NCBI GenBank assembly: GCA_947561395.2 | Contig: OX387184.1 | Location: forward strand, 32,912,766-32,976,765 | Length of the DNA stretch: 64,000 nucleotides | Source: Buxus sempervirens | Taxonomy: Eukaryota > Streptophyta > Magnoliopsida > Buxales > Buxaceae | Reading direction: 5' to 3' | Shown: positions 66 to 54,029 of the stretch, one piece after another | Position numbering within the stretch: the stretch's first letter is position 1 | Layout: each line of letters starts with the position of its first letter | Notes under the pieces: model-generated | What the model was told of the DNA's origin: nothing | Databases searched by the model: none | Seen by the model: only the letters and a program-made list of their open reading frames with translations | Position numbers and translations under genes: made by a program

Positions 66-178
66 GCTCCGTAAATCGCAGTTAGTATACGGGCTGGGCT
101 TGACCGTATTAGTTATACGGGCAAGGCTCGCTCGTAATTTAAATGCGGGCAAGGCCAGACCGTAATATATTTACGGGT
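66..178. repeat. GCCCG/CGGGC hairpin-prone block (copy 1, leader of A)
   Basis: Short GCCCG...CGGGC arms alternate with AT-rich spacers such as TAATTTAAAT, giving degenerate units of about 25-30 bp that can fold back on themselves. Similar blocks occur at 21975-22125, 27845-27965 and 35251-35405, all tied to the A/B family or to the gene antisense to A. Confidence 0.75.
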
Positions 179-324: not shown

Positions 325-1030
325 ACAAAATCCTTGGGCCTCTAAAAGCCTTTGAATTTTAGAAAATGCTTGGGCCTCTGAAAGCCTTTGAATTTTAGAC
401 CTTTTTCAAAAATATCCCTGGGCCTCTGAAAGCCTTTGAATTTCAGACTTTACCATTGGGCCTTTGAAAGCCTTTGAATTTTAAAAAATCCTTGGGCCTC
501 TGAAAGCCTTTGAATTTCAGATCTTTTTCAGAAAATCCTTGGGCCTCTGAAAGCCTTTGAATTTTAGACCTTTTTCAAAAAACTCCTTGGGCCTCTGAAA
601 GCCTTTGAATTTCAGATCTTTTGGGCCTTTGAAAGCCTTTGAATTTCAGATCTTTTTCTTTGAGCCTCTGAAAGCCTTTGAATTTCAGACTTTACCATTG
701 GGCCTCTGAAAGCCTTTGAATTTCAAATTTTACCCCTGGGCCTTTGAAAGCCTTTGAATTTCAAATATTTTTCTTTGGGCCTCTAAAAGCCTTTGAATTT
801 CAGACGTTACCCCTGGGCCTCTGAAAGCCTTTGAATTTCAGACTTTACCGTTCGGCCTCTGAAAGCCTTTGAATTTCAGACCTTTTTCAAAAATATCCCT
901 GGGCCTCTGAAAGCCTTTGAATTTCAGACCTTTTTCAAAAATATCCTTCGGCCTCTGAAAGCCTTTGAATTTCAGATCTTTTTCTTTGGTCCTCTAAAAG
1001 CCTTTGAATTTTGGATCCTTTTCTTTTGTG
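325..1030 (+). repeat. Leader minisatellite of element A (hairpin units)
   Basis: About 18 degenerate units share the core GGGCCTCTGAAAGCCTTTGA followed by ATTTCAGA and a variable spacer (TTTACC, or CTTTTTCAAAAATATCC), spaced about 30-50 bp. Each unit is an inverted repeat with 7-bp arms around the loop GCCTTTGAA. Stem variants keep pairing: TCTGAAA with TTTCAGA, TCTAAAA with TTTTAGA (341-363), TTTGAAA with TTTCAAA (743-765). The same array occurs in element B at 33840-35100. Confidence 0.9.
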
Positions 1031-1249
1031 GGACCTGTTGGAAGCCCTATAATATTCCAACACCTCTTTTTTTGGTCTTTTTTTGTACCAATCAATCCTT
1101 TTTGTGGGACCCTTGGAAGCCCTAAAATATTCCAACAATTCAAAAAAAAAAAAAAAAGCAAATAAGAAAAAAATCCAAACTCGTGTTCACCTAACTTGCA
1201 TATAGGCATTCATAGGTATGTAACTAGATTGAATTGGTACTGATATTTT

Positions 1250-1272
1250 TATTTATTTTTATTTTACCAGGT
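1250..1272 (+). promoter_or_regulatory. Splice-acceptor-like site just before gag of A
   Basis: A T-rich run ends in TTTTACCAG followed by GTACCAATAC. The same CAG|GTACCA junction sits just before gag in element B (near 33656) and element D (near 53315). It fits a 3' splice site that would remove a long leader; splicing itself is inferred. Confidence 0.45.
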
Positions 1273-2765
1273 ACCAATACACTTGCAACCATAGCTCCTG
1301 TGACCAGATCAAGAGCTCGCACCATGAATCCCATTGATAATGAAGCTGATGTCCCTAACCCAGATGTTGCCCTGCTACAGGAACAAGTGGCAGGACTAGC
1401 CCGAATGCTAGAGAACTTACTGGCAGTGCAGGCCCAACAAGTGCAAGCCCAGAACCAAGCCTCCACTTCCAACCACGCACCCCAACCTCAAACCAACATT
1501 CCACCTCCGGTTCAACCTATTCCTGAACCCATTTATGAACCCACCCCTGAACCTATATTGATCAGGGATGAGACAGTTGAATCAGAAAAAGAAAAAGAAA
1601 AAGAGATAATGAGGGAAGAGGTTGAAAGGAAATTCATGCACAGACTGGAGGTGATCCTAGATGAACTGAGGGAGGTAAAAGGGGTGAACAACTTTGGGGG
1701 CACCAACTTTGAAGACTTGTGCCAATATCCTAATTTTAACCTACCAGCCAAGTTCAAGTGCCCGGACTTGGACAAATATGATGGCATTGGCTGCTCCATG
1801 AGCCATATGAAGTTATACTGTAGGGCCCTATGCCAGTTCGATCGAGATGAGGGCATTCTGATTCAGCTCTTCCAAAGGAGCTTGACTGGAACTGCTTTGA
1901 GGTGGTTTGCCACCTTAGACCATGGAAGAATCAAAAGAAGGAAAGACCTAGTGGATGCCTTCTTGGCTCAATACAAGTTTAATTCAGAGATCGTACCAGA
2001 CAAGTACGATGTAATGAGGATGAGCAAAGGAAGGGATGAATCTGTAAGGCAGTATGCCAAGAGATGGAGGGAGACGGCCTCTCAGGTCAGGCCACCTATG
2101 CTGGAGCAAGAGATGATTTCTACCTTCATCAGTACACTGGGTCAACCATTCTACAGCCACCTGGTGGGTCAGACCACCACTAATTTTGCCGCCTTGGTAC
2201 AAGTGGTCGATCGAATCGAGGACGGGATTAGGTCGGGTAAAATAATTGACCATTCTGCTATGGTCAGTTAGCAGAACCCCAATCTAAAGAAAGGAAGTGG
2301 GATAAAAAAGAATGGGAACAAGAAAGAGGGGGAGGTGAACATGGTACAACCACTATCTGGACCTAACAAGCCCATACAAATCAATATACCCGCTCATTTT
2401 CCTACTCCATCCACTCCACCAACCCAGCAGGCCCCTATGAGGGTTAATGTTCCAGCAGCACCCTCAGACCAAAAGAGGGCTTTTACTAAAGAAGAAAGGG
2501 ATGACTATTTTGCAGCAAGGAGAAATAGGGTTTTCACCCCTATTCCAATGTCTCCATCTCAGCTGCTACCAACTCTATTGCAAGCAGGGTATATCACCTT
2601 AAGAGAGCCAAATCCAAATGCATCAAAGGGGAGAAATTTTGACCCCTCCACCACTTGCGATTTCCACATGGGTGCACCTGAGCACCCTACTGACAAGTGT
2701 TGGCCTTTGAAACACGCCATTTAGGACTTGCTTGACCAGAATACCATGTATTTCAATACAGGACC
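1273..2765 (+). pseudogene. gag: Element A gag (capsid/nucleocapsid) relic
   Basis: The frame open from 1234 holds TRSRARTMNP near the start, a coiled, glutamine-rich stretch, a charged EKEKEKE run and a retrotransposon gag core with LTGTALRWFATLDHGRI and ESVRQYAKRWRETASQV. Downstream is a zinc-binding-like motif of the form C-x2-H-x5-H-x4-C (CDFHMGAPEHPTDKC). It would package the element RNA. Element B carries a close relative at 31989-33692. The gag-protease linker resumes after F1 at 5707. The copy is broken. Confidence 0.85.
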
Positions 2766-13867: not shown

Positions 13868-14125
13868 AAATGTATCTGACCATACAGGTCGGATAAACTA
13901 CCTCCTTAGTGTATCCGACCATATATGGTCGGATACACTAGGTTCCATTTGTATCCGATATTAAATATCAGATACAAAACATAATAAGTTGAAAAATTAA
14001 TGCCACCGCGAATTTGTCGGGGAATCGGCACGAATCTCGCTGGCGGATCTCTTTGTATCCGATGAATAGTGCTGGTTATACAAAAAAGCATGTGTATCCG
14101 TCATATTTGGTCGGATACAAATTGA
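13868..14125. repeat. GTATCCGA palindromes upstream of the C1 TATA box
   Basis: Inverted repeats of the type GTATCCGACC-ATATA-GGTCGGATAC occur at 13871-13893, 13910-13937, 13951-13977 (arms around TATTAAATATC) and 14092-14118. D's 3' LTR has the same set at 41841-42090; C3 and C4 do not. They lie in U3, so they may be promoter elements. Confidence 0.8.
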
Positions 14126-17800: not shown

Positions 17801-18477
17801 CTAATCCCTATCCCCTAACTGCTCCTCAAGCTCCCCAATCCGAGCCACCTGAGTTGCAATGATTCCAGAAGCTCCCTCTGCGTCTGGATCGCTCAAAAAG
17901 GAGATGACCTCATCTGAAAGTGATTGCTTGATCTTCAAAGCCCTCAAGTCAGCCAGGGAATCCTGATATTTCTTCTGCATCGCTCGGACTTCAAAGCGAC
18001 GAGCCTGTCTTTGTTCCTCAAGTTTCTTCTCCATAGCAATGCGGCAAGACACCTACTCTTTAAGTTGTCTCTCCAGATCAATACCTTTTATCCTGAGTTC
18101 TTGGGCTTCTCATACCCATATTTGTTGAAGCCGCTTATGGGTTGCCCTTTCAGTGTCCAGGATGTCTTCATAAGTAGGGGGAAGAACTGCAGGAGGATCC
18201 TCTGGTACTGGGCCATGACTCTGCACCTGCTCTTTGATCCAGAAATGATAGTCCTTCACATGGAACTCAAAGAAGATCTGACCCTGCAGAAAGCGAACAT
18301 AGGACCACTCATTCATTAACCGAGCATTTAGCCCCATGGTGGCTGGTGTAAGTGTCCCAAGGAAGTTCTCATATCCAGTTGGGATCGTGATCCCCTGGGT
18401 CACTCCAAATTGTCGAAGAACCCTCAAAGGAAGATAGAGAACAATAGATTTCAAGCCTGCTAGAACCAAAAAGTTCC

Positions 18478-20811: not shown

Positions 20812-21033
20812 GTTCCTATCTCTGAAGCTGATCACTGTCTCTGGATTGGGCTGATAAGTGTCAGGCCATCTCATCTGATCATCCTGGAGAATACCCAAGA
20901 AAGTGACCCAACCTTGCTTGCCACCTTGGATGTTAGGACACCCCCTGTTGCTCATCAAAACAGGAACTTTCAATCTTGGAAAAAAGCGGCAAGTTATCTC
21001 TTCAACTTGACTCAGGTGGTCAAGTAACCAAAG

Positions 21034-21141
21034 CTGCAGAAAAGGGAAGTATTTTAATTTATTGCAAAAAAGAAAAAAAAAAGAAGAAGAAAAAAAAGGA
21101 AGAAAGAGAAGAAATAGAAAGAAAAAAAAATCCTTTTTTAC
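21034..21141 (-). other. GT-AG intron in the antisense DUF7745-like gene
   Basis: On the - strand CTACAG|GTAAAAAAG starts the intron and a long T-rich tract ending TTTTCTGCAG|CTTTGG closes it (108 bp). The flanking protein reads ...ACALILQ and LWLLDHL..., matching the unbroken ...IWLQDHL of D's relative near 63835. A spliced intron is unusual for a frame carried in a retrotransposon. Confidence 0.75.
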
Positions 21142-21930
21142 CTGTAGGATAAGGGCACATGCAAGGAAACGTTTCTTCTTTCTGAAATAGCAGTCAGTCA
21201 GGGCCTGGTATATCTCTGCCAATATCATAAGGGCCAATCTCTCACGTTCCCTAACCTGGCAGACAACTGAGATGAGAGCCAAGTCAACCTGGTCTTCACC
21301 CCGTGGAAAGAGCAACTGGTTGACCACTATCAAAGTCAAAGCATTAAACCGGGCATCCTTGTCCTCACCCCTTAGAAGTTTTTCAGTCAGAAAGGTCTTG
21401 GACAAAGTCAACAGTGTATCAGAACCCCTTAAATCCTTCTTCCCGATACCCAAGAAAGTGGATGCCTCATTTTTGTAGCTAGGCTTAAGGGGCGGGTTGA
21501 CTACTTCTTCAGAAAACCTTAAGCCAAGGATTGTTTCAATTTCTTCAATGGTTGGAGTCATCTCTTTGTCATCAAAGCGGAAGAGATTCAATTCAGGTAC
21601 CCAGTGCGCAATCAAAGCCTCAATGATTTCCCACTTAAAGGGAATTTTAGGGATGTGTAGGATGTGACCTAAGTGGATGGAATCCCAATGAATTTCCTCA
21701 TCAAAGGTCATAGAGTTAACCCACCTATCATAGAAGGAATCCACAACATTTTACCTGGTGAGATTAGGAGGTTCTGATCTAACAGGTTGTCTTGCAGGAG
21801 GAGCTTCATCGGCAGAAGAGAACGAGGAAAAGGAAGCCATGGAATCACCAAAGAAGCCAAGGAAAGCAAAAAACGGAGGGCTTAGGGAGTTTTCAAACTA
21901 TTAAAAACGTCACAATGACGTTCCCCATGA

Positions 21931-21974: not shown

Positions 21975-22125
21975 ATACGAGCACCGCCTGCCTATATGGA
22001 AAATGCGGGCACGCAAAATTACGGGCACTGCGTGCCCGCATTAAAATTACGGGCACCGCGTGCCCGCAATCAAAATACGGGCGTTGCGTGCCCGCATTAA
22101 CATTATGGGCACTGCTTGTTCGTAA
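21975..22125. repeat. GCCCG/CGGGC block (copy 2, promoter of the antisense gene)
   Basis: At least five GCCCGCA/TACGGGC arms separated by AT-rich spacers (ATTAAAATTA, ATCAAAATA). It is the same motif as in the leaders of A and B and in B's LTR U3 (27845-27965), where it also precedes a TATA box. Confidence 0.8.
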
Positions 22126-22352
22126 TATAAATATGGTTTTTTGGAAAAAATGCAAAAATTGGGGATTTTCAATTTTAATGCTTTCCCAAGCTTCACCTGT
22201 CCCTGCTTTAACATATATCATGCAAGAAAAGCAAGAAATAAAGAAGAAAAGAGCATAAATGAAGAAAAATGAATCAAATTTCTTTATATATATATATATA
22301 TATAGGGAAGTGTACATCATTTGTCAAATACAAGTACATGTGATATCCTAAT
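22126..22352. other. Short AT-rich spacer with a (TA)n microsatellite
   Basis: Lies between the two antisense genes. A TA run is at 22285-22304. On the - strand this would be the 3' flank of the PMD gene. No coding region is seen. Confidence 0.6.
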
Positions 22353-25229
22353 CTAATCTGTCTCTCCAGGTCTACCCCCACGGCCATGACCAAGTCCACG
22401 TCCTCTGCCTCGACCGCTGCCTAAAGGTCGCCAGCACTCAAAAACATTCACCACAAGACGACGAGCGGTACTACGGGTCATCCTGCTCAAAATAGACTGA
22501 ATATTATACCACATATATAAAGGCGCAAGGCCAGCAGTGGGATGATCAAGAGGAACGTACCCCGAGGTATCTACATCTCCCGCAGACTCTGCATCAGAAC
22601 CCGCAAGGACGTGCTCAGGCACAGGCTCGGCGGCAGGCTCTGCACTCCCACTGACCGTAGACTCGGAGACAGGAACAGACGCCCCAGGAGCATTAGCATC
22701 AGGCCCAGGCTCCACAGACTCAACAGAGACCTCATCTATTACTACAGCCTCCTCGGTAGGCTCCATCATAGCGGCATCCCCGGCCGACTCCATATCCATC
22801 TCAGCAGGTGCATCGGGAGCAGTCTCTGGTGCTGGAGCAGACTCTGGCATGTCCTCAGTAGTAGGGGCAGCAGTAGGTACAACCTCGGTCTCTATGTCAG
22901 GCTCGGCTGCAGGTACCTCTACTGATCCAGGAGGAGTCACGAGCTACATCAGTGACACAGAAAAGACCTCACCATGGGGATGTGTCTAATAAGGTGAAGA
23001 AGGACCGGCTGTGTCATCCTGAAAATAAGAAAAGGAATTTTAATCAGAACAGAATAAGAAAATATAAGAAGCAGAAATTGAAAAGGGTGAAAGAATTAAC
23101 CTGAGTATAAGATGGACCCGCCTGGTCCTGTACACCAGAAGGACCCGCCTGGCCCTGTGCCCTAGCAAGCTGTCCCCTGAGGTCGGCAATGGTAATAAGG
23201 AGGGTGTCCTGCTTAGCAGTAGCGGCATTTCGCTAGCGCTCTATATCAGCATACCGACCTCGAATCTCTGCCAACTGAGCCTCCTAAATTAGAAGAAGGG
23301 GTGTAAAAAATGCCAAGTCAAATAGAATATAAGAATGGAAGATCAAAGAGGGAAAGGCATACCGTGGTATCGTAGGCCCTGATCACTACCCCTCCTATCT
23401 CAGTAACTCCGCCACGGACAGGCATGGGTGGCATGAGGCACCCAACTGAAGCCTGCCTAAACCAGGCATCATAGTCACCCTCCTCCAACAAAGTCTCTGC
23501 CTCAGTCCAATCTAGGAACTGAGCAGGATCAATAGGCATAGAAGGAAAAGAAGGGGTAGTATCCGGAGGGATGACAGGAATCTGAGGCTCTCCAATGTTC
23601 TGATAAAAGAAGCGCTCGCCGCAATACCAAATGCTACCCATCTGACTGATAAAGAAATGGTAGCGCTGACACCTCTGGTCAAGGGCGAATGCATCATCTC
23701 TAGTAGCATGCAGGGCCAACACCTCATGAATGTCCTTCATCCGGAGAACAAACAGCTGAGAAAAAAAAAAGGAGTATTAGGCATGTGATTCAGGAAAGGG
23801 AAAAAGGAATAACTAAAGAAGCTTACCTTATTCCGATACAACCAATCAAGATGAGCCCGGGCAGATATAGGCCGACTCTTTTCAGAGTCGTGCTCCACAT
23901 GGTACCATCTATGAGCCATAGGATACGTCTCCTCTGGCATCGTAGAGGTAGGCGGAAGTAGGGAATATAAACCCTAGTAAAAAAACTGCAAAAGAAGAGA
24001 AAAAAAGGGTCAGAAGAATAAAAAAGGAAAAAAAGAGAAAGAAAGAATAGAGAAATAGGTATTTCACCTGCAAGAAGGGCTAGAAGAATCTGCACCCAAC
24101 TCCGGCTCCTCGAGAGGTAGAGAGGCCACTAACTGATCAGCGCAAGCTAGTCAAAATGGTGCCAAAAATAAGCGACCCCCAAGCGTACCTCCTCGCCCGT
24201 TGCAGCTGTCCCAATAAACTCAAAAAATGAGGACTGACAGAAGTTGTGTCCTCTAGGAAGAAACAGGAGCCCATCATGTAGAGGAAGACGAAGCGGAATG
24301 CAAAAGGAAAAGATGTATGACTGGAAGAAATCTGGCTGAGCTGTCTCCTCCGGAAGGTCTCTCTCAACCAAGTCAAAGACAATCTAGGTCTCCCTCTATC
24401 CCAGGCCTCCGGGGGCAACACCACATATCCAAGATAGGCAGCAATCTCTGCAGCATCTGGCATCACCATCTCAGGGATAATATCTCTAGTCATCCTAATC
24501 CCTGTGATGAGCGTGAAGTCAGACGGCCGGATCCCGATCTCAATATCTGGAAAATGGAAGCTCAGCGTCTCTGGGAAGAACCTCTCGAGCATCGTTGCAA
24601 TAAGAGCTCGATCTAAGCGCACATCCAGGATTGTGATGAAGAGGCCGAAACCATACAAGCCTAGCTCCCGGCGAAAGGATGAACTGCAGTCTCCGATAAA
24701 TATAATGAAGCTGGCCCAGCTCCCTCGGTAATGAGACAAGGGATACACTAAAGGGATATCCGCCCTAATACAGGCTGAGGGATGAGTCCTTAGGCCGTGT
24801 AGCAAGTCGGTATCCCTAATCTGTGCCGCGATAACCTCAGGGACCGCAACCCTAGTCTGAGCCTCCTCCCTGCCACGGCCTCCCCTGCGGCCTCCTCCAC
24901 GGCCCCCATCACGGCCTCCATCTCTGCCTCTAGCTCGTCGCTCGCCACAGCCTCTACCTCTGCCTGGAGCCTCAACCACCGGCTAAGGAAACAAGTTGAA
25001 AGAGAAAGGATCAGGGTGAAGGATGTTGAGAAGGAATTTTAATTCTAGAAAGGTTAGAGTATACCTCTGGGGATGCCTCACGTGAATCCCCAGAAGGAAG
25101 ATCTGGGATATTAGAATAAGAATCCTTTGCTGCCCCCGAAGAAGACGCCACATCAGTGGGATCCCTCCGAACCCTAGAAGAAGAGGGCTCATCTGCAGGA
25201 TCCCTAGGAGCCGAGCGAATACGGGCCAT
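22353..25229 (-). CDS. Plant mobile domain (PMD) gene, multi-exon
   Basis: Exon 1 starts at 25229 (MARIRSAPRDPADEPSSS). An intron at 24983-25064 (GAG|GTATAC ... CCTTAG) leads to an Arg/Gly-rich stretch and the PMD: YGFGLFITILDVRLDRALIA, MLERFFPETLSFHFPDIEIG, FTLITGI, YLGYVVLPPEAWDRGR and RRYAWGSLIFG. Later blocks carry ISARAHLDWLYRNK (to donor AAG|GTAAGC near 23826), then GSIWYCGERFFYQNIG (23757-23362), then a Gln/Leu-rich coil, and a Glu/Ala/Pro-rich end closing in SGRGRGRGLGHGRGG (22353-22940). PMD proteins such as MAIN/MAIL act in silencing and genome stability, and PMDs also occur in transposons. It is either a second antisense gene of element A or a stray host-type gene. At least two interruptions within the coding blocks make activity doubtful. 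Confidence 0.7.
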
Positions 25230-31988: not shown

Positions 31989-33692
31989 CTACTCAAATGG
32001 AATTGTTTGCACCTCCTTTGCCCTTTCACCTGTCATTTCATTTTCTTTCAACTTCAGCTTAAGATCTGGTCCTGTGTGAGTCTCTTTCTCCACATGGCCC
32101 CATTCATCTTCTTTTTCAAAGTAAACTCGGATTGTGGTACCAACCGGAGCAATAATTTGAGAAGGGTCAAATCCTTTTTTCCCTGGAAAAATTGCCCTTA
32201 TTGCATTTGAGCTATCTGCCCCATTGTTATTGGTAAGTGGGATGGGTGTAACTGAATTGAATGATAAAGAATTATTATCCAACAAATCCTGGATTGCATG
32301 TTTTAGGGCCAAGCAACGATCTGTGGTATGCCCTGGAGTGCTCATATGATATTCACAGATTGCAGATGAATCATAATCCTTCCCCTTACTTGCATGAGGA
32401 TTTGGCAACCTCAAAGCCAGTTTAGAAAATTCCCTTCTCTTCCTTACTTCTATTTCCTCCTTCACAGGCTGTGCAAAAGGGACATTAATTTGGATAGGCA
32501 GCAAAGGAACTTGATGAGTTGGCTTGATAGGAGGTGGATGGGCATTGATTTGAAAGGGTTCCCTGGGAATTTGCACCATATTCACTTCTGCTTCTCTCCT
32601 TTCCTCAGATTTTTTCTTTCCATTACTATTTCCCTTGTTATGAGTGGAGTCTTGTTGACTGACCATGGCGGAATGATCAATTATCTTGCCGGATCTGATC
32701 CCATCCTCAATCAGGTCAGCCACTTGTACCAGGGCAGCAAAATTAGTGTTGGTATGACCCACCAAGTGACTGTAAAACGGCTGCCCCAGTGTGCTAATGA
32801 ATGTAGAAATCATTTCTGGTTCCGACATGGGTGGCCTGACCTGAGAGGCAGCCTCCCTCCATCTCTTGGCAAATTACCTTATGGTCTCATCATTTCTCTT
32901 CGTCATCCTCATCATGTCATACCTATCTAGTATAATCTCAGAGTTGAACTTGTATTGTGCCAAGAAGGCATCTGGCAAGTCCTTCCACCTTCTTATCCTT
33001 CCATGATCCAAGGTGGCAAACCACATCAAAGCAGCTCCAGTTAAGCTCCTCTGGAAGAGCTGAATTAGTATGCTGTCATCCCGGCCAAACTGGCATAAAG
33101 CCCCGTAGTATAACTTTAAATGGCTCATTGGGCAGCCAGTGCCATCGTATTTGTCCAGGTCTGGGCACTTAAACTTGGCCGGTAGGTTAACATCTAGGTA
33201 TAGGCATAAGTCTTCAAAGTTGGTGCCCCCAAAGTTATTAACTCCTTTCACCTCCCTCACTTCATCCTGGATCATCTCCAGCCTGTGCATGAATTTCCTT
33301 TCCATCTCATCCCTCATCCTCTCTTTTTCTTTTTCTTTTTCTGATTCAACCGTCTCCTCCCTGATCAATATAGGTTCCGAGGTGGGTTCAGAAATGGGTT
33401 CAGGAATAGGTTGAACCGGAGGTGGAATATTGATTTGAGGTGAAGGTGCTTGGTTGGAAGTGGAGGCTTGGTTTTGGGCTTGGACTTGTTGGGCCTGCAC
33501 CGCCAGTAAGTTTTCTAGCATTCGGGCAAGTCCTGCCACTTGCTCTTGCAGCAGGACAATGTTTTGACTAGGAACATCAGCTTCATTCTCAGTGGGATTC
33601 ATGGTGTGAGCTCTTGATCTGGTCACATGAGCTATGGTTGCAAATATATTGGTACCTGGCGAAATAAAAATAAAGAGAAATATTAGTACCAA
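31989..33692 (-). pseudogene. gag: Element B gag relic
   Basis: Close relative of A's gag: TRSRAHTMNPTENEADVPS, the EKEKEKE run, LTGAALMWFATLDHGRIRRW, ISTLGQPFYSHLVGHTNTNF, and the zinc-binding-like CEYHMSTPGHTTDRC (C-x2-H-x5-H-x4-C) followed by LALKHAIQDLLD. Beyond that the protein differs from A (SLSFNSVTPIPLTNNNGADS and a charged end) instead of running into a protease linker. Gag alone suits a non-autonomous element that supplies its own particle protein. It has only a few breaks and is better kept than A's pol. Confidence 0.85.
33650..33665 (-). promoter_or_regulatory. Splice-acceptor-like site before gag of B
   Basis: The - strand reads TTATTTCGCCAG|GTACCAAT, matching the site at 1260-1272 in A and 53310-53322 in D. 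Confidence 0.45.
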
Positions 33693-33839
33693 TTTAATCT
33701 CAGTTACATACCTATAAATGCATGTACGCAGGTTAGATGAACACGAGTTTGGATTTTTTTCTTTTTTATTTTTTTTAATTTGAGTTAAAACAATTGTTGG
33801 AATATTTTAGGGCTTCCAACAGGTCCCACAAAGAATGAG

Positions 33840-35100
33840 AAATGTCTAAAATTCAGAGGCTTTTAGACGGCCCAAAAAGATTGATGTTTCAAATTCAGAG
33901 GCTTTCAAATGGCCCAAAAAGATTGTGTCTAAAATTCAGAGGCTTTTAGACGGCCCAAAGAGATGGATGTTTGAAATTCAGAGGCTTTCAAATGGCCCAA
34001 AAAGATTGTGTCTAAAATTCAGAGGCTTTTAGACGTCCCAAAAGGATATGTGTCTATAATTCAAAGGCTTATAGACAGCCCAAAGAAAAGATTTGTCTAA
34101 AATTCAGAGGCTTTTAGACGGCCCAAAGAAATGATTTGTCTAAAATTTAGAGGCTTTTAGACGGCCCAAAAAGGTTGTGTCTAAAATTCAGAGGCTTTTA
34201 GACTGCCCATAGAAATTTGTCTATAATTCAGAGGCTTATAGACGGCCCAAAGAAATGATTTGTCTAAAATTCAGAGGCTTTTAGACAGCCCAATGGATAT
34301 TTTTGACAAAGGTCTGAAATTCAAAGGCTTTCAGAGGCCCAATGTTTTTTTTTTTTTTTTTTTTGAAAAAGGTTTGAAATTCAAAGGCTTTTAGAGGCCC
34401 AATGGTAAAATCTGAAATTCAAAGGCTTTCAGAGGCCCGATGGTAAAGTCTGAAATTCAAAGGCTTTCAGAGGCCCAAGGGTATTTTTGAAAAAGGTCTG
34501 AAATTCAAAGGCTTTTAGAGGCCCAAGGGATATTTTTGAAAAATGTATGAAATTCAAAGGCTTTTAGAGGCCCAGGGGTAAAGTCTGAAATTCAAAGGCT
34601 TTCAGAGGCCCTGAGGTAAAGTCTGAAATTCAAAGGGTTTCAGAGGCCCAGAGGTAAAGTCTGAAATTCAAAGGCTTTCGGAGGCCCAAGGATTTTTTTG
34701 AAAAAAAAGTCTGAAATTCAAAGGCTTTCATAGGCCCAAAGGTAAAATCTGAAATTTAAAGGCTTTCAGAGGCCCAGGGATATTTTTGAAAAAGATTTGA
34801 AATTCGAAGGCTTTCAGAGGCCCAGGGATTTTTTTGAAAAAAGTCTGAAATTCAAAGGCTTTCAAAGGCCCAAAGAAAAAGATCTGAAATTCAAAGGCTT
34901 TCAGAGGCCCAAGGGAATTTTGAAAAAGGTTTGAAATTCAAAGGCTTTCAGAGGCCCAATGGTGAAGTCTGAAATTCAAAGGCTTTTAGGGGCCCAGGGA
35001 TTTTTTTGGAAAAAAGTCTGAAATTCAAAGGCTTTCAGAGGCCCTAGGATTTTTGGAAAAAAGTCTGAAATTCAAAGGCTTTCAGAGGCCTAGGTATTTT
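33840..35100 (-). repeat. Leader minisatellite of element B (covarying hairpin units)
   Basis: About 30 units on the - strand of the same kind as in A. Two sub-types: 33840-34290 has stems GTCTAAAA/TTTTAGAC, GTCTATAA/TTATAGAC (34052-34076 and 34219-34243) and TTTGAAA/TTTCAAA (33970-33992); 34310-35095 has mostly TCTGAAA/TTTCAGA. The 9-base loop (GCCTTTGAA or GCCTCTGAA) is almost constant while the stems change in pairs. The spacer often carries a T- or A-run. Confidence 0.92.
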
Positions 35101-35250
35101 TTTTTTCAAGAAATTTTGTTTCACATTTTTATTTTATTTTGTTTTTTTTTTTGAAACATTTTATTCAAACTCATCTCCCTTTATCATCACTCAAAGGTTA
35201 AAGAAACAAGATTTGGTGGGAAAAACCCATTAAAATTGAATTTCCCGCGA

Positions 35251-35405
35251 AAACCGTATACACAATACAATTTGGCCTTGCCCGTACTTAAAATGCGGGC
35301 AAGGGTGCCCGTAATTAAAATGCGGGCAAGGGTGCTCATACTTAAATTGTGGGCAAAGGTGCCCGCATTTAAATTGCGGGCAAGGCTTGCCCGTATAGTA
35401 AATAC
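35251..35405. repeat. GCCCG/CGGGC block (copy 4, leader of B)
   Basis: Units of about 28 bp with arms TTGCCCG and CGGGCAAGG around AATTTAAAT-type spacers; the best-ordered of the four blocks. Confidence 0.82.
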
Positions 35406-36395
35406 GGTTTTTGGAGTTTTATTTCATTTTTTTTCCATTTTTTACATGGTTTGATCACCTTGATTGCTCATTCAAACATACGATTCACCCTTGCAAGGCT
35501 ACTAAACTGTCCCACAGTGGACTTTGATCCTATTTACATGAATGCCTCATGAGGGCACATCCTCCCTCCAAAATTGACACCATATTCAGGGATTCTGTAC
35601 CTTTGGTTGCCTCTTGTATAAACATTGGGTAGGATTAATTCTGAACAGAGTTAAAAACTCTTCCTATGGGCTACACCAATTTTAGGATACATGCCTATTT
35701 GGGACCAACAGATGGACACCATGTTCAAAATTTAAGGCTACCTTGTTACCTTGTTTACCTTCAATATGGCATTCGCATTATGCCTTGGCTTGATAACCAT
35801 GCAAACGGCCTTCCCTCAATTACAAACCCATATCCCCACGTAATTGTGTACTTTAGCCAAAAACGTGTATCTCCACCTTCAAGCGTAGGGGTTTTGGGTC
35901 TTGGCTTAATGGCAACTTAGAACTCAAGCCTAGTGATGACCAAAATCGAATCACAGATCCACATTGTCATCACATCATTAGCCCAAAGTTCTAAGGTGAA
36001 TGTTTTCACTTTCGCTTTCCGAAGTATCGACCTCGTTGCCCCAAGCTACACATATTCGGGTTCAACTTCCTATAGGTTATGGGTAGGCTGTGTAAAAAAA
36101 TAAAATGTGTACAATGAATATGTAAAATTTGGGTACATTCACAACGTCCCAGCCCCTTTGCCACTCTTTTTCGCAACCATGCATTATACAAACCAAGGCA
36201 TAATAAGAAGCATAATTGAAGCAAATAAACATAAGTAAACAAGCAACCCTATAGCACCTAAACATGCTCACAAAAATTACCCAAATCATACAAACATATG
36301 CTCATGTTATACAACCCAAAATATATCATGGAGAACATGCTGGAAATTAAAACATGCTATTATTAAAATATAGCAAGAAATAAGCATGGTTTAAC
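35406..36395 (-). other. Leader of element B, no gene seen
   Basis: AT-rich sequence without convincing coding potential, lying between the repeats and E1. Short open frames such as 35666-35920 show no family motif. The part 35406-35470 matches positions 1-60 in element A, showing both leaders are alike. Confidence 0.55.
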
Positions 36396-36400
36396 GAAAC

Positions 36401-37974
36401 TGATAAGTCATGAAAATACCACATTATAGCTCATTTAATTCATGACTTATCTGGTTTTATTTCATATTTAATTCCCAATTTTACTTAGAAATTGTCAAAG
36501 TCTTTCATCTTTGCATTTTATTTTCATTGTCTAAATTTTGCCTAATTTGTTGATGTGGAGATACTCTTGGTGATTATAGAAGTCACGGTTCAAACGGCAT
36601 AACAATCGGAGTCAAATTGTAGAAGATATGAGCAACGTTCGCTTGTCGTTCGAACGTTGGTGATCTACAGAGAAACCCGAGAGCAACGTTCACTGAACGT
36701 TCGCTTGTCGTTCGAATGTTGGTGATCTACAGAGAAACCCGAGAGCAGCGTGAGCTGAACGTTCGCTTGTCGTTCGAACGTTGGTGAAAAATAGAGAAAT
36801 TATGAGCAGTGTTCGCTGACCGTTCGATGAACGTTCGAACAAGAGAAGAGGAAACAACTTTTTAACTTGAGCGTTCGACCCACGTTCGATGAACGTTCGA
36901 ACGATCAAGTAGTAAAACCTGTTATGAAATTCCGAACTTTGCAGATTTGTTTCCTTTTTCTTGGGGATCTTCTTCTAGTTTTTAGGAGGACTTTAAGGGG
37001 TTTCTAATTAAGAAGATTAGGTCGTTTTTGGACTTCTAAGTCGTGGATATACAAGGAAAGGAAGTTCTCTCTTCCTTAGGAGTTTTGGAAGGAAAATTCC
37101 TATTTTCTCTTCAAGGGATTTTTGGGCAAGCTTTGAGATTTCTATAAAGAAAGAGCTGGAACGTGAAGAGAGGAGGATGATGCTGGGAACGTGAGAAGGA
37201 ACCAGGAACGTGGGAGAGATCAAAGCTTGGATCTCATTAGTTTATTTCTTCTCTTTTTAATATACTCTGTTTTTTATGGTTGTTCTTAGTTCAATCATGA
37301 ACTAATTTCTCTTTCTAAGGCTTTGATGTAATCTAAGCATGATGTTTTAATTCTGAATAATATTGCTACAGGATTTATGATTCATTTTTTGAGTATTTTA
37401 TTATTGTGCTTAACCCAATTGAGTATTTGATCACCATTCAATTGTATTGAGACCGAGAGGAGATATACAATTTTAGTTCCTGTGATAAAATATCATATTC
37501 TACATGTTGATAGAGATATTGGCATGGTTTATGTAGCTTTGTGTTTTTGTATATGAAAATCTACAAATCTTAATGTGCCTTTTTGCCTTTAAATTCACAT
37601 AAGATATCTTGAATTATCGTGGGGAGGTAAGTTCGTTGGTGCTCGAGAGAGACCATTGGATAGAATAGGGATTTTCGCTTTCAAAGTGGATTATAAAATT
37701 CAGTAGCATGTGTATTCAAGAGTTAATTCAAATTTGTTTATGATGAAATCAAATGCCTTAGTATTTTAAATCCCTTATTGAATCTTACTCTTATATTTTC
37801 TTAGTTAATAATTTTAAGTGCTAGATAAAAACCCATCTCACTATTTGATTTTCCAAATAGAATTTAGGATAGTAATTTCTGTATTTAGTAGCTATAATTC
37901 CCTGTGGGTTCGACACTCTATTTCATCACTTTATTACTTGTTACGAATTCGTGCACTTGCAAAAAAGTACATCA
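36401..37974 (+). mobile_element. E1: solo LTR of family E in B's leader
   Basis: Starts TGATAAGTCATGAAAATACC, ends AAAAAAGTACATCA, flanked by a perfect GAAAC duplication (36396-36400 and 37975-37979). Length 1574 bp. Near its end CCCTGTGGGTTCGACACTC resembles the R/U5 end of many plant gypsy LTRs, giving the + orientation. The first 65 bp form a loose inverted repeat (ATAAGTCATGAA ... TTCATGACTTAT). No PBS, polypurine tract or coding is present. E2 is nearly identical outside its insertion. Confidence 0.88.
36625..36910. repeat. CGTTCGAACG-rich tandem repeat in E1
   Basis: Units of about 63 bp (ACGTTCGCTTGTCGTTCGAA, then CGTTGGTGATCTACAGAGAA and ACCCGAGAGCA) repeat about 3 times, followed by degenerate CGTTCGA words. 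E2 has the same array at 55285-55570. Confidence 0.85.
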
Positions 37975-38217: not shown

Positions 38218-41200
38218 TATGCGCGCGTTGGAAACGCGGCATGGGAAAGTTCGGAGTCGCCACCGCCTGATGGGGTTCAAGCGGACACCTGGGTGCCTAA
38301 GTTAGTCTATTAAGGGCTTTGATCTGCGGCTTGAGATTCTAAGTAGGGTCTCGGTTGTGGTCTGGGGAAGTCCATAGACACCCCAGTCCACCCCGTCGGG
38401 TGACGGGTCCTGTGGGTTCCTTGATTTGAGTCAGCTTGCTTGGGTTCTCACCCAATTCCTAATCCGACATGCAACTTGGTTAAGTCTGGCGGGACCACCT
38501 GAGGGGTGTGGGTCCCTTTAATTGTTTTTATCTTGATTAATTTAGTACTCTGAGCTTGATTGGGTGGGCCCCATTGGAAGGCCCACGGTTTCCTTGGTGG
38601 ACTTGGGTAAGCCCACATGTCCCATGTGGGTCTCTGTCTAAGCCTAAGAGGCACTTTGGGTTTAGGTTTAATGAATTGATTTTATTTTAAGTTTTAATTT
38701 AAAGATTTAAGTGGCTTTCATGCAAAAAATGGGTTGGCATTGGTTTGCGGGCCCCTGGATGGGCCCCCATGTTGGTTGCCAAAAAATGTTTTAATTTATC
38801 TTTATTTATCTTTGCAAAAGTGCACTGGATATTGGGCTTGGGGCCCGTGGTCCAGTTTTGGGCTTAAAAGCCCAGCTCTTTGAAGTCTAGGGTTGCACCC
38901 TAACTTGGTTAATTAGCGGGCTTTGGCGGGCCCGATAGGTCCTAGCCCGTGCTCTCGGCCAAACCATGCAATTCACATCATTCCGTACATCAAGGTTCGG
39001 GTGGGCCGCATTGGGTTTGGCCCGCCCGGTTCGATTAGTTAATTTTACTTAACCTGCTTGGGTGGCATGCTTTAGGGTTTATCGGGCTTGGTGGGCCCCA
39101 TTGGACGGCCCACTAATTGTTCCGAGTTGGACCGGTGGTCCATGTACCATGTTGGGTTTCCGGGTGACCTGGGAACCCTATAGGTTCACTTGGTTCAGTG
39201 TAAACATCATTCAAATTCAACAAGGATCAAAGAATATGCAAAAATGGCATTTCTGCCATGTAGCCGACATTACTTGTCGGCTACACGCAAGTCCTAGGTG
39301 ATCCGACCTGAGTTGTCGGATCACCTCAAAATTGCCTTTTTCGGGCCTTTGCGATTGGAGTAGCTCTTGTGGGCTTCCTGGAGGTTTCTACAAGTCATGT
39401 GGGCCCCTGAGAGGGCCCACATTGGTTCAGGTCATGGGGTGGCATCCCATTTGATCCCTTTTGGGATTTCTCCACATGATCAAGAGGACAAGGGGGAAGG
39501 CATGGTGCTGCTGCCCCTCCTCAATTCCCTTAGGTCCCATAACAATAGCAAAAGAAGGCCATGGCACCCCAAATGTGGCGACCCTTCATCATCAATCCAC
39601 GCATGACCCAAGGTCAATAACAAAACATGTCAAGACGTGCAAGCTTCTCACAAGATAATGCCTACCATAGAGCATGGAATAACAATCAACAAACAGAAAA
39701 AATGCAAACCAGATCTCAGCATGTACATGGAGGTAGGCAATGCGTGGAGGTTGAACTTGAGGGGTTGCATTCACACACAGGCTTGGGGATCACCCTAGGG
39801 ATGCTGGGGTATTGGCATACATGCTGGGACAGCAAGTTTAAGGTGGTTTTGGGGATTTCAAAGTGGTTAAAACAGTGGGTAGTAGGGGGCTGGGGGAGCA
39901 TGCTTATATACATGTAAAAAAAACCATATGCTACATGAAAAGAAAACAAAAGGGGCTGCTGTAGACAAAGGGGACAGCTTTGAGACCAAGTTTTGGGTGG
40001 GGTTTGGTGTGCTACCGAGGATAAAAGGTGCTGCTGCTGCCTCCAGCAGCAGCTTATTTAAACCATGACAGTGGCTAAAGGGGTGATGGGCTCATACCAA
40101 AGGCCATAATCGGCCAGGCCTGCTATGAAAATACACATGAAAGCAAATAAACAAACACTCCACAAAACAAGGAGAAAAGGAACCTGTTGTTCCTCAGAAA
40201 AAACCAGCATGTCATGATAGGGATCATGGGGGTAAAGGGATCATGCTTGCGGCAAGTTAAAGGGCTGGGGAGCATGCTAATGCACATGCAAAATCATAGT
40301 AGTTGGGCAGGCAAAACAGAAACATGGGGGGAGGTTAAACCTGCTGGTGGCTGTAGCAAATAGACAAAGTTTGTTGCTGTCCCCCAGCAGCAACTCCCAT
40401 GGTCATGGCAAAGGGTATCGTGGGGCAAAAGGGGATGCATATGTAACTTAATGGACTACATAAATACTCGTGCTAATAAGCGAACATCCTGTAAATATAA
40501 AGGAACAGCAACATAAAAACTTAGCACGCAAACGGGGGTATGCGCACACATGCCTATATGCAAGATGGTCGACCACATGAGCAGGTCCTACATGCCTTAA
40601 TTAAACCATGGAAAAGGATGCTGTGGGTAATGGGCACAGCTACTATGGTGGGGGTCGAAAGCATGCTAAGGGTGAGTGGGATCATGCCAATGACTTCAAA
40701 CAACAAGGAATGTTATGCACACACCCAAGGGGAATGAACCAAAAACCTGCTGTGATGATAAACAAGGGAGGAAAACAGCAGCCATACATGAGGATTTTAA
40801 ACATGCTCAAAGGGGTGAAAAACACACCGAGCTTGGGGAGGAGCAGCCTTCATGCGAGGTTCTAATGGGTTGGTTTTAGGGGCCTAGGCTGGTGAACAAA
40901 CCAGCTAGGAACAGCAACTGTTGCAGGGGTTTAGACATGTAGAGATCAGCAAACATAAAGGGAGAGGGGATCATTCTTTCCCAACAAGAAGCATCAAGCT
41001 GGAGGGCATGCACTGTTGGGGTATGATAACAATTCAAACAGCAATCAGGGCACGCCAAAAAGAATAACAAAACAGCAACACACGTGAGCCATGCTCATGC
41101 TAAAGAAATAGAAACAGCCTCACATGCATTTCCCCCATGTCTTCTAGCAACATCTCGACCCAAACCACATGCTTAACCCCGGGACATATAGAGAAGGGAA

Positions 41201-42667
41201 GAAGAAGGGGGGGCTTACATGGGGGTACATTAGAACATAAGCTAACGGGGAGCATGCCCCCTCCTTTAATGGAATGAACCACTACCAAGAGCACAAAAGA
41301 AAATACAGGAACTTACCATGACCAAATGATGCATGGAAACTCTCTCTTCCTCACCCTTGAACCAAGCGTGAGGTCTCTCTTACCTTTAGAGACCTCCATA
41401 TGGTAGAATGGAGAAGAAACACATGCCAAAACTCTAAGGAAATAGGTTCAGGCTAGGGGAGAAAGCAAGCTTAGTAGAATCTAAAAAAGAACCTCATTTT
41501 AATATATGTTAAGCCAAAGGTAACCAGGAGCCTCACCTGGTGGTTCTTGAGCTCTGGAGCAAGGTGGAGACACCTCCTTGAGGAGACAAATGGCGCTGGA
41601 GTTTCCCTCCACGGCAGCAACAGCAAGTGTTCTTCTTCTTGTTGGAGTGGGAGACCAAAGAAAAGGATGAAGAACAAAGGATTAAATGGTATGGAGGGGG
41701 GTAGGGGATGGGTGTGGAAGCAAATGAGGTTGGAGAGAAGGGCAATCGGATGGGGACAAGTGGTGGAAGAAGGCCAAAGAGAAGCAAAAGGAGCCAACCC
41801 CCAAAATGAGCTTGTTGGTGGCTTTTTATAGAGAAAAAAATGTATCCGACCATATAGGTCGGATACACTATCTCCTTAGTGTATCTGACCTATATGGTCA
41901 GATACACTAGGTTCCCTTTGTATCCGATATTAAATATCGGATACAAAACATAATAATTTGAAAAATTAATGCCGCTGCGAATTTGTCGAGGAATCGGCGT
42001 GAATCTCGCGGGCTAATCTCCTTGTATCCGATGAATAGTGTTGGTTATACACTAAGGTATGTGTATTCGACATATTTTGTCGGATACAAATCGAAAAATT
42101 ACGGATTTGCGCCTAGATATTCGCAGATTCATCCGATACTCTTAGATATTCACAGATTTGGTCCCTGCGAAATTTTGCTTTAAACCCAGGGATATTTTGC
42201 ATGCTTGGATATTTACGGATTGCCTCTCGAGATATTTTCTCGCACCACTCGCCACGTGTGCGGCTTTTTGCCACGTGTGCAACTTTCTGGGTTTTGCTGC
42301 TCGGAAACTTCGACAGCTCATATCTCCCTCATCCGGGCTCCGATTTGAGCAAACTCAGTTGCGTTAGAACCGTATCGGAGCCCTATATCCAATGACATAG
42401 AGCTAAGCACCTGGCTCGGGTTTCAAAAAACGTCAACTTTCGGCTCTCCCTCAAGTTTGACCGGCCCACAGAACCTTCATCCGGACTCCGATTCGAGCAA
42501 ACTCAGTTGCGTTGGACTCGTGTCGGGATTCTCTATCCATGGAGATAAAACAAGGTGGCAAATTTTCACTTGATCAAAAAGTCAATTTTCGACCCCTCAG
42601 GGTTTGACTTTTTAGCCGGGTTTTGCATTTCCGGATCTTCCGGGAGTGCAAAAATAAGGTGCTTACA
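38218..42667 (-). mobile_element. 3' LTR of element D (family C)
   Basis: On the + strand it begins TATGCGCGCGTTGG (TG changed to TA at the very end) and ends AAGGTGCTTACA, next to the polypurine tract. Length 4450 bp, close to C1 (4529 bp), with the same GTATCCGA palindromes (41841-42090) and two U3 units (42350-42600). A TATA-like box at 41821-41832 and a donor-like site CCAG|GTGAGG at 41532-41540 are on the - strand. Open frames within show no family likeness. Confidence 0.88.
41821..41832 (-). promoter_or_regulatory. TATA-like box of D's LTR
   Basis: The - strand reads CTCTATAAAAAGCC, nearly the same as in C1. A 7-bp GGTCGGA palindrome set lies just upstream. Confidence 0.6.
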
Positions 42668-44936: not shown

Positions 44937-46130
44937 CTATCCATTTCTTGTAGGATAAGTGCTCCTCAAGACAGAACTTTGTGGACTACGAATGGTCCTT
45001 CGTAGTTTGGCTTGAATTTTCCCTTTGTTGTCCTCTTGATGGGGAAAAATTCTCCTCAACACTAGATCTCCCACTTTGAAATGTCGTGGCTTTACTTTCT
45101 TGTTGTAGGCTCGCGCCACTCTCTGTTGATAGAGTTGGCCATGGCACAAAGCCTTGATCCTCTTTCATCCAATAGTTGTAACTGGTCAAATCTGGATTCC
45201 TCCCACTCGATATCACTGATCTCAGCTTCCTCTAGAATTCTGAGTGACGGAATCTGTACTTCCACGGGGAGGACTGCTTCCATTCCGTATACCAAGGAGA
45301 ACGGAGTTGCCCCGGTCGATGTTCTAATCGACGTCTGGTAGGCGTGCAGTGCATACGGCAGCTTCTCGTGCTAGTCTCTGTAGGTAACTACCATTTTCTC
45401 GAGTATCTTTTTTAGATTCTTGTTGGCAGCCTCCACTGCTCCATTCATTTTGGGTCGGTATGCCGTGGAGTTTAGATGTCTGATCTTCAGATCCTCACAC
45501 ATCCTTTCCATGTCCTTGTTGTTCAGATTCTTTGCATTGTCTGTGATGATCGCTTCTGGCACTCCGTAGCGACAGACTATATTGTTTCTGATAAACTTAA
45601 GCACATGAGATTTCTTCACATCTACGAAGGACATGGCTTCTACCCACTTGGTAAAGTAATCGATCGCCACTAAGATGAACCTGTGCCCATTTGAAGCTTT
45701 TGGATGAACCTGGCCTATCATGTCGATTCCCCAGATGGCAAATGGCCAAGGTGATGTCATGGAGTACAACATATTCGGCGGTGCATGGATGTTGTCGGCA
45801 TAAATCTGGCATAACTGGAATTTTCTGACATGAGCGTAGCAGTCCGCTTCCATGGTCATCCAGTAATAGCCCATCCTTAGAATCGTCCTTGCCAGCATAT
45901 GCCCATTCATGTGTGCGCTGCACAACCCTCCATGGACTTCCTCAATTAACTTCTGTGCCTCATCTTCTCTGACACATAGCAGTAGAGAGTCATTGTATGA
46001 CTTCTTGTACAACCTACCTCCACTGTAGAAGTATTGCCCCGCCAACCTCTGGATAGTTCGCTTCTCTGCAGCCGAGGCACCTTCTGGCAAAGTTCTGTCC
46101 TTATGTATCTCTCGATGTCTGCATACCAAG
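44937..46130 (-). pseudogene. int: Element D integrase relic
   Basis: N-terminal zinc-binding region (VHGGLCSAHMNGHMLARTIL, DCYAHVRKFQLCQIYAD), core with WGIDMIGQVHPKASNG (Asp), FILVAIDYFTKWVEAMSF, AIITDNAKNLN (Asp) and GAVEAANKNLKKILEKMV (Glu), then the C-terminal part with VYGMEAVLPVEVQIPSLRIL and PRHFKVGDLVLRRIFP. It parallels the integrase of A but is clearly diverged, so A and D are different families of one group. The copy is broken. Confidence 0.88.
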
Positions 46131-46226
46131 GCTCCTCTTCGGGTGTGCTTTTCTCGACACTGAAGCAGTAAACAGGGTAACGCCAAATTTCTATTTCCAG
46201 TGGTTGCACCCAAGTATCATCCGTGA

Positions 46227-46625
46227 TGGTGGCCATTGATGCCAGCGTAGCTAGTGTATCCGCAAATTGGTTCCCATCTCGTGGCATGTAGTCAAATGTT
46301 ATGCTTTCAAATTCCTCTTCTAATTCCTTGACCAGCTCTTGGTATGGCACTAACTTCACATCTCTAGTCCTCCAATCTCCCATCACTTGATAGACGATAA
46401 GACTTGAATCACCAAATACTTTTAGCTCTTGTATATGCATCTCGATTGCTGCTCGCAAGCCTAACACACATGCTTCATATTCGGCCATGTTGCTAATGCA
46501 ATCAAACAGGAGTTTCGCTGCTATCGGGTAATGAACACCACCGGGGGAGATCAGCACTGCTCCGATCGCCTTTCCATTTACATTGACTGCCCCGTCAAAG
46601 AACATTTGCCACTTAGTTTCCTCTG
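46227..46625 (-). pseudogene. aRNH: Element D archaeal-type RNase H relic
   Basis: KWQMFFDGAVNVNGKAIGAV (Asp), CISNMAEYEACVLGLRAAIE (Glu), LKVFGDSSLIVYQVMGDW (Asp) and NQFADTLATLASMATI (Asp): all four acidic positions are visible. It lies between the gypsy-type RNase H connection and integrase, as in A. Confidence 0.88.
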
Positions 46626-48072
46626 TGCCCTCCACGGATGCTTCACACATCACATCTTCATCGGGGAAGTGAGTCAGGAGCGGTTGGTAGTCCGGTAGGG
46701 GGTGCTCTGCCATGTGATCTGCTACAGCCTGCCCTTTTATCTCCTTTCTAGTTGTGTAGACAATGTCATACTCAGATAAAAGGACTTGCCACCTGGCAAC
46801 CCTACCAGTGGAGATCAGCTTTTCAAATATGTATTTCAATGGATCCAGATTGGAGATCAGTAAGACTGTGTGACTGAGCAAATAGTGTCAGAGCTTCTGA
46901 GCTACCCAGACCAGGGCGTAACACGTCTTTTTGAGCACTGTGTATCTGACTTCGATGTTGGTAAATTTCTTGCTCAGGTAATAGATTGCTTGTTCTTTCC
47001 GCCCTTTCTCATCGTGTTGTCCTAACACACATCCTGCAGCCGTCTCAAACACTGTCAGGTACATAATCAAGGGTCGTCCCGGGACTGGCGGGACCAACAT
47101 CGGTGGGCTCATCAAATAGGCTTTGATCTTTTTAAACGCTACTTGGCAATCTTCATTCCAGACCACAGGGTTATCCTTCCTTAGCAGCTTGAATATAGGC
47201 TCGCACACAGGAGTCATCTGCACGATGAATCGACTGATATACTGCAACCTGCCCAAGAACCCTCTTACTTCCTTTTTAGTCGATGGAGGAGGCATCTCCA
47301 GAATTGCCTTTGCTTTGACGGGGTCGACCTCAATGCCCCGTTTGCCCACTATGAATCCGAGCAACTTCCCTGAAGTAACTCCAAACACACACTTGTTTGG
47401 ATTGAGCCGGAGCTTGTGCTCTCTGAGCCTGTCAAACATCTTCCCAAGGTTCACCAAATGATCATCTTCTTCCTTAGACTTTGCTATCATGTCATCCACA
47501 AATACTTCCATTTCTTTGTGCATCATGTCGTGGAATATTGAGGTCATTGCACGCTGATACGTAGCACCCACATTTTTCAATCCGAACGGCATCACGCGGC
47601 AATAAGTGCCCCAGTGCGTGATAAAGGATGTTTTCTCCATATCCTCAGGTGCCATCCTTATCTGGTTATAACCAGAGAAGTCGTCCATGAAAGAGAACAT
47701 TGAATGCGTTGCTGTATTGTCCACCAGTACATCAATGTACGGCAATGGGAAGTCATCCTTCAGACTCGCTCTATTCAGATCTCTGTAGTCGACACACATC
47801 CTGACTTTCCCGTCTTTCTTGGGAACTGGCACAATGTTGGCTAACCACTCCGGATAGTGAGTTACTTGTAGGAATCTGGCATCCAACTGCTTGGTGACCT
47901 CTTCCTTGATCTTCAGGGCCCATTCTGGCTTCGTGTGCTTGAGCTTCTGTTTCACAGGTATGGCCTCAGACTTTTTTGGTAACTTATGCACAACCAAGTC
48001 CGTGTCTAACCCGGGCATATCCTCGTATGACCATACAAACACGTTAGAATAAGATTTAAGAAAATCAAACAT
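46626..48072 (-). pseudogene. pol: Element D reverse transcriptase and RNase H relic
   Basis: The frame from 48072 reads VFVWSYEDMPGLDTDLVVHK, WLANIVPVPKKDGKVRMCVD, FSFMDDFSGYNQIRMAPEDM, VMPFGLKNVGATYQRAMTSI and FVDDMIAKSKEEDDHLVNL with the catalytic Asp pair, then the thumb and the RNase H start (IMYLTVFETAAGCVLGQHDE, YYLSKKFTNIEVRY). It continues through ARWQVLLSEYDIVYTTRKEI to PLPDYQPLLTHF. One of the best-preserved coding blocks in the window. Confidence 0.9.
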
Positions 48073-53325: not shown

Positions 53326-53424
53326 ATTAGCAGGCATTAGTGCAATTTTACACAAATTGGTTATATAACTTATTTGATAGAATTTGTCCCTTCGATTTAT
53401 GCAGATTTTTTTGATTGGATTTGG

Positions 53425-53955
53425 ACTAACTGATCTATTTTAGCTACCCTAAGGCAACAAGGGAAGAGAACCTGATTTTGAGTCAATTGATCTATTTTAG
53501 ATACCCGTAGGTAACAAGGGAGGAGAACCTGATTTTGAATCAACTGAACTATTTTGGTTGTCCTAAGACGACCGGGGAAGAGAACCCTATAGAATTTGGA
53601 AGACTGATCTATTTGGGCCGTCCTAAGATGACTGGGGAAGAGAACCCTATTGAATTTGGAAGATTGATCTATATATATATATTATTTGGACTAACTGATC
53701 TATTTTAACTGCCCTAAGGCAACAAGGGAAGAGAACCTGATTTTGAATGAACTGATCTATTTTGGCTACCCGCAGGTAACCGGGGAAGAGAACCCTATTG
53801 ATCGAATCTATTTTAGCCACCTGCAGGTAACTGGGAGAGAGAACCCTATTTCACTGATCTATTTTAGCTACTTGGCCAAGGAAGAGAACCTGGGGTCAAG
53901 CTGATCTATTTTAGCTATTTAGACAAGAAAAGAGAACCTTCAATTTAAGGGGTTT
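53425..53955 (-). repeat. ~60-bp tandem repeats in D's leader
   Basis: About nine degenerate units on the + strand of the form CTGATCTATTTTAGCTACCC + (CGCAGGTAAC) + GGGGAAGAGAACCC(T). They lie between ORF1 and gag. Spacing runs 40-65 bp. Confidence 0.88.
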
Positions 53956-54029
53956 TGTTTGAGCTCAGAATCACAGGGTTGGACCAATCAGGGTCTCCGC
54001 AGGGGGTGAGCTGAAAAGCAGCACCCAGG

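Follow-up and report, generated by a model that had tools for sequence, protein, structure and literature searches.

The window, i.e. the whole stretch of 64,000 nucleotides of the Buxus sempervirens genome that was analysed, harbors two copies of one element family, each with a gag open reading frame and with arrays of hairpin-bearing tandem units immediately upstream of it. One copy (E2) lies on the minus strand, its array adjoining the gag frame directly on the 5′ side, and the second copy (E1) lies on the plus strand at the start of the window. The features of both copies are as follows.

86..177, plus strand: E1 counterpart of the CGGGCA repeat of E2; the consensus stem has only 5 bp and is not above shuffles (p = 0.128)
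340..1016, plus strand: array A of E1, 17 units of the same kind as array A of E2
1037..1061, plus strand: single hairpin of E1 downstream of the array, matching that of E2, loop GCCCTATAATA
1234..2271, plus strand: gag open frame of E1, Retrotrans_gag PF03732
32874..33692, minus strand: gag open frame of E2, Retrotrans_gag PF03732
33796..33820, minus strand: single hairpin of E2 between array and gag, GTTGGAA, loop GCCCTAAAATA, TTCCAAC
33843..34293, minus strand: array B of E2, made up of 11 hairpin units 40-43 bp long, with GTCTAAAA/TTTTAGAC as the predominant stem and GCCTCTGAA as the predominant loop
34312..35087, minus strand: array A of E2, 18 hairpin units with several spacer lengths, stem mostly TCTGAAA/TTTCAGA, loop GCCTTTGAA
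35278..35395, minus strand: second, unrelated hairpin tandem repeat upstream of array A of E2, unit of about 27 bp, TGCCCG/CGGGCA

The family comparison consists of these two copies, which share about 85% identity across gag and the sequence just 5′ of it (84.6%), with 178 mismatches among the 1168 aligned bases of the gag region. Both encode PF03732, a trait which is not specific to the Tat group. On the strand of E1, a reverse transcriptase with RNase H follows 3′ of gag, and beyond it come a 4.5 kb repeat, an RNase H-like RVT_3 domain (PF13456, 15285-15782) and an integrase. These pol domains presumably belong to E1, which the 4.5 kb repeat splits between RT/RNase H and RVT_3. The same domain order is found in a third element of the window, where PF13456 also precedes the integrase (45946-46881). 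We take RVT_3 to be the second RNase H, known as aRH. According to PMC6317226, an aRH between RH and INT is characteristic of Ogre and Retand elements, which belong to the Tat group. The family is thus probably a plant Ty3 element of the Tat/Ogre group. For E2, the six frames scanned downstream of gag gave no pol domain match. Relatives of the E1 gag protein in a collection of viral contigs numbered zero, and exact core patterns of the hairpin units had no match in viral contigs or in prokaryote genome contigs, collections which include no plant genomes.

Within the 64-kb window, neither the ends of E1 and E2 nor a 5′ LTR or a primer site was found, and among five tRNA-end patterns tried on positions 33691-36390 of E2 the loosest one alone matched, twice. 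Since the array adjoins gag and the window holds no further copy of the region, we infer that it sits in the 5′ leader and not in an LTR. With regard to a possible control by upstream ATGs, such triplets number 10 in positions 1-1323 of E1 (one within the array) and 14 in positions 33603-35440 of E2 (two within the arrays). A possible very short intron of 55-56 bp lies just 5′ of gag in both copies (1216-1270, plus strand, in E1; 33656-33711, minus strand, in E2), with candidate signals recognised by eye (AG/GTATGT, then TACTGAT or TACTAAT, a T-rich stretch and CAG/GTACC). Downstream of the E2 gag and on the same strand, two frames match the PMD/DUF7745 plant mobile domain (20788-21744 and 24137-24979), and a weak third match under the Pfam cut-off occurs at 18110-18643 on the minus strand.

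A search with the loop pattern, one mismatch being permitted, detected 46 hairpin units: 17 in E1, all of class A, and 29 in E2, comprising 18 of class A and 11 of class B. The row of about 30 hairpins reported for E2 by the first-pass annotation is thereby confirmed, as are the stems that it had described, all on the minus strand, which is the gag-sense strand: GTCTAAAA/TTTTAGAC at 33927-33951, GTCTATAA/TTATAGAC at 34052-34076 and 34219-34243, and TTTGAAA/TTTCAAA inside 33969-33993. The one further family copy compared, E1, contains class A units, and the loop search found no class B unit in it. The consensus core reads CTCTGAAA GCCTTTGAA TTTCAGAC in class A and GTCTAAAA GCCTCTGAA TTTTAGAC in class B, and has the potential for a stem of 7-8 bp around a 9-base loop. 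Class A units measure 34-60 bp and carry several spacer types, which are found in E1 and E2 alike.

A perfect 7-bp stem is present in 10 of the 11 class B units and in 19 of the 35 class A units (9/18 in E2, 10/17 in E1). Broken or wobble stems occur in 10 of the 29 units of E2, nearly all of class A; the ATTTGAAA unit at 33886-33910 has G opposite G. When the letters of the consensus unit were shuffled (n = 1000), a stem at least as long as that of the consensus arose in 0.8% of cases for array B, 2.8% for array A of E2 and 1.7% for array A of E1, each value representing one draw per array, as units within an array share descent and classes A and B are related. An Rfam scan of positions 33500-36000 of E2 returned two matches at E values up to 1, both far below the gathering score, and a known RNA family was rejected on this basis. 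Outside the arrays, the 15-base core recurred at 10 scattered places when up to 3 mismatches were permitted, none of them in tandem. No description of the 16-base core was found in the open-licence PubMed Central literature, a result that cannot prove the array to be undescribed.

The first-pass annotation had seen in these units paired stem changes around a fixed loop, and had taken them as a mark of selection for RNA structure. In class A, 20 distinct rows were compared with 500 column shuffles. Paired cells amounted to 91.4% vs 90.6% in the shuffles; the observed covariation score was reached by 85 of 500 shuffles and the observed percentage paired by 154 of 500. One-sided Fisher tests of left vs right arm, applied to the two pairs with most variation, gave p = 0.26 and 0.14. 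RNA selection on the gag-sense strand would be expected to tolerate G-U and to remove A-C, and G-U was not favoured on that strand: the 19 non-Watson-Crick cells among 245 comprise 6 G-U, 11 A-C and 2 others. Folded as gag-sense RNA, the class A arrays were no better than their shuffles (z +0.18 and +1.39, 20 shuffles each), as antisense RNA they reached z -0.02 and -0.15, and on average a unit formed its own hairpin with a probability of 0.15 and 0.17 within the two folded arrays.

Cells changed on both sides and still paired number 4 in class A, beside 19 cells changed on one side. A neutral simulation matched to the 19 one-sided cells required a hot-spot factor of 20 and gave 1.1-1.2 expected doubles (P 0.027 to 0.093), while a factor of 8 yielded about 10 one-sided cells, which is too few, and P of 0.007 or less for the doubles; these simulations, like those for class B below, are a rough guide, as they rest on assumed rates and exchange models.

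The changes in class A are concentrated at particular sites. CTG and CAG (CHG) sites are targets of methylation in plants. Among 32 core changes in 945 cells, 24 fall on four CHG positions (140 cells), namely those of the left-arm CTG and the right-arm CAG. In detail, transitions affect 22 of 140 CHG cells vs 1 of 245 CHH and 4 of 525 A/T cells, and the loop, which is devoid of a CHG site, shows 3 changes in 315 cells. Other parts of the window show a weaker hot spot: between the members of a presumed LTR pair, 6 of 77 CTG/CAG cells carry transitions vs 24 of 815 CHH cells (about 2.6 times), and in the gag region changes affect 28 of 197 CHG vs 77 of 772 CHH cells (1.4 times). Deamination is therefore not the whole explanation, and decay of methylated cytosine as the full story was rejected on this ground and because class B is without a CHG excess. 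A CHG account of class A variation is thus partial. The remaining class A core is steadier than the CHG rates predict, which points either to recent common descent of the units or to constraint. Class A gives no support for selection on RNA structure.

Class B behaves differently in the covariation test. Its 6 distinct rows include three pairs changed on both sides, and none of 500 shuffles reached the observed score or percentage paired. Because column shuffles disregard the relatedness of units, an 11-unit array was simulated under point mutation, hot spots and unit turnover in the absence of structural selection (six settings, 1500 runs each). Five or more paired cells together with three or fewer one-sided ones, the observed combination, were seen in 0 to 0.4% of runs, both-side changes at three pairs in 0 to 1%, and five paired cells alone in 0.4 to 6.6%; at the highest mutation rate, 4 to 7% of runs reached five paired cells, accompanied by many more one-sided changes. 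As these frequencies are low, independent point mutation is a poor account of class B. No G-U and no A-C occurs in the 77 cells of its inner seven pairs. The CTG of class B lies in the loop, where 2 of 11 loops vary, and changes affect 2 of 33 CHG, 4 of 55 CHH and 4 of 22 CG cells. Folding of array B gave z -2.55, none of 100 shuffles folding as well, with a mean own-hairpin probability of 0.49.

The paired changes of class B trace to about three events:

event 1: the A-to-B stem change
event 2: a change of A-T to T-A, seen in two units
event 3: the ATTTGAAA type, seen in two units, one with a broken stem

The two ATTTGAAA units lie two units apart and have an identical 14-base left flank; at least one of the events was spread by duplication of two units. 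Array homogenisation, which the first-pass annotation had itself named as an explanation that would speak against selection, is thus found for at least one of about three events. Comparison of the flanks of the two T-A units shows 2 differences among 14 bases upstream and 6 among 12 downstream, and the change in these units may represent one event or two. As a whole, the covariation inference is partly supported: it holds for 11 units in one copy, corresponding to about three events, and is unsupported in the 35 units of class A.

On balance, the evidence tips towards a minisatellite upstream of gag that arose by tandem duplication of a hairpin-bearing unit, with copying between arms as the source of the class B variants and without the need for a selected RNA-hairpin role. 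Amplification in tandem could have occurred by strand transfer during reverse transcription or by unequal exchange. Class A stems would then have been altered mostly through C-to-T changes at CHG sites of either strand, each change affecting a single arm. For the paired variants of class B, one arm may have been copied from the other by template switching, and the products would then have been multiplied by duplication. Going from A to B, the left arm acquired a substitution together with an additional G, whose partner on the right, a C, was frequent beforehand; a single template switch could supply both the substitution and the inserted base that extends the stem. Two E1 units, at 384 and 553, carry the TTTTAGAC right arm together with an unchanged left arm, and a right arm of this type may be the template that such a switch would copy. 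The lack of G-U in the inner seven pairs of class B is likewise the outcome that arm copying would give. PMC8794818 describes template switching between hairpin arms that produces compensatory changes or stem extension in one step, and states that its role in maintaining short stems is less clear. For the 3′ repeats of Tat elements, PMC7004042 gives illegitimate recombination, or abnormal strand transfer between copies packaged together, as the proposed source and leaves the exact mechanism undetermined. Template switching as the origin of the class B pairs is suggested by the arrangement of the arms in the sequence. The first-pass annotation did not expect paired change from neutral decay of a tandem repeat; neutral simulations of class B rarely gave it, but template switching could produce it without selection.

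Duplication with arm copying is favoured over selection for RNA structure, according to which the hairpins, chiefly those of class B, would be maintained on the genomic RNA for packaging, dimerisation, export or translation. We regard such selection as unlikely, even though all 7 bp are intact in 10 of the 11 class B stems, the paired changes of this class exceed both shuffles and neutral simulations, array B folds well by z score and own-hairpin probability, and further hairpin sequences also lie upstream of gag. Against it stand the 35 class A units in two copies, which lack covariation above shuffles, a G-U preference and a folding excess, as well as the small basis in class B, with 6 distinct cores from about three events that were not found in E1 and a number of paired cells that 4 to 7% of neutral runs at the highest mutation rate also attain, though with many more one-sided cells. 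A narrower form, in which class B alone would be a selected RNA-hairpin array near the 5′ end of the element RNA, with paired change around a nearly fixed loop, serving packaging or dimerisation and gained by one family lineage, is less likely again.

The core might instead be a DNA box bound by a protein, its dyad symmetry marking the binding site, as has been proposed for Sirevirus motifs. In accordance with such a function, AAGCCTYTRAATT is near-constant across all 46 units while the outer stem positions vary, and clusters of palindromic boxes are described for Sirevirus LTRs in PMC2829016. However, the boxes of that account are found in LTRs and close to env, and almost all of them possess a CGG-CCG core, and recent common descent of the units likewise yields a constant core. 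A protein-bound box appears doubtful, behind both forms of RNA selection.

Hairpins were also observed elsewhere in the window. A third hairpin array of the CGGGCA type, including one 14-bp stem, is located at 22002-22133, apart from the other two. Long perfect hairpins of the TGTATCCGACC/GGTCGGATACA type, whose stems span 11-15 bp, lie within the 4.5 kb repeat (41841-41947 and 13907-13940) and differ from each other by paired changes. Copies of the same repeat contain hairpins at 56755-56864 and 39259-39326; among the four with stems of at least 9 bp, three have the loop CTKAGTT in common and both stem arms vary (ATCCGGC/GCCGGAT, ATCCGAC/GTCGGAT), and near 56800 there is another unit, whose stem is broken. 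At 55714-62472, one copy of a 1.6 kb sequence that is whole at 36390-37974 is split by a 6.8 kb insertion of this repeat family; the alignment ends share 5 bp, an overlap consistent with a target-site duplication. In the third element, the interval from the presumed 5′ LTR to the coding frames contains tandem repeats of 51-60 and 145 bp (53418-54341), and the two shorter consensus units showed no hairpin excess over letter shuffles. Since hairpin minisatellites occur elsewhere in the window, a hairpin-bearing minisatellite is not peculiar to this leader.

The least likely reading, which overlaps with duplication and arm copying, is that hairpin content itself promotes tandem duplication, so that minisatellites of this genome would be hairpin-bearing by origin in any element or place: for 8 of 18 consensus units, hand-chosen from the 61 tandem-repeat rows of the window, fewer than 5% of letter shuffles equalled the stem, and 4 of the 8 lie outside the E1 and E2 arrays (22015, 36634, 41841, 56763), and the window holds 34 hairpins with stems of at least 9 bp vs 2-6 in five first-order Markov sequences, but 10 of the 18 are without excess, including 53428 and 53748, and both the 18 units and the 34 hairpins include several related, non-independent copies.

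Tandem repeats of Tat elements seed plant satellites, and their origin is still considered open in PMC7004042. When stems in a tandem repeat change in pairs, this alone is no evidence of RNA selection, and a hairpin array upstream of gag with variants resembling copied arms is a place to test template switching as a maker of arrays.

On the hypervariable tandem repeats of Tat/Ogre elements, PMC7004042 cites Macas 2009. As described in PMC7004042 and PMC6317226, these repeats resemble the arrays reported here in that they form short arrays in a non-coding part of Ty3 elements and vary between copies, and the elements probably belong to the same group. In contrast, the Tat repeats in PMC7004042 lie downstream of gag-pol in the 3′ UTR, whereas the present arrays are located directly 5′ of gag in both copies and their units bear hairpins. 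The PMC12786077 passages contain nothing on hairpins in plant leaders. The palindromic motifs of Sireviruses, as portrayed in PMC2829016, are similar as many copies of a short dyad-symmetric motif in non-coding sequence of a plant LTR element. They differ in belonging to Ty1/copia elements, in their location in LTRs and upstream of env, in their CGG-CCG core and in their proposed role in transcription control; the core AAGCCTYTRAATT is without CGG, and the array adjoins gag. Finally, although the template-switch mutations in PMC8794818 were inferred from reconstructed ancestors of RNA genes and those proposed here from 11 units, both share paired stem changes and the extension of a stem by insertion in one arm, attributable to a single event.
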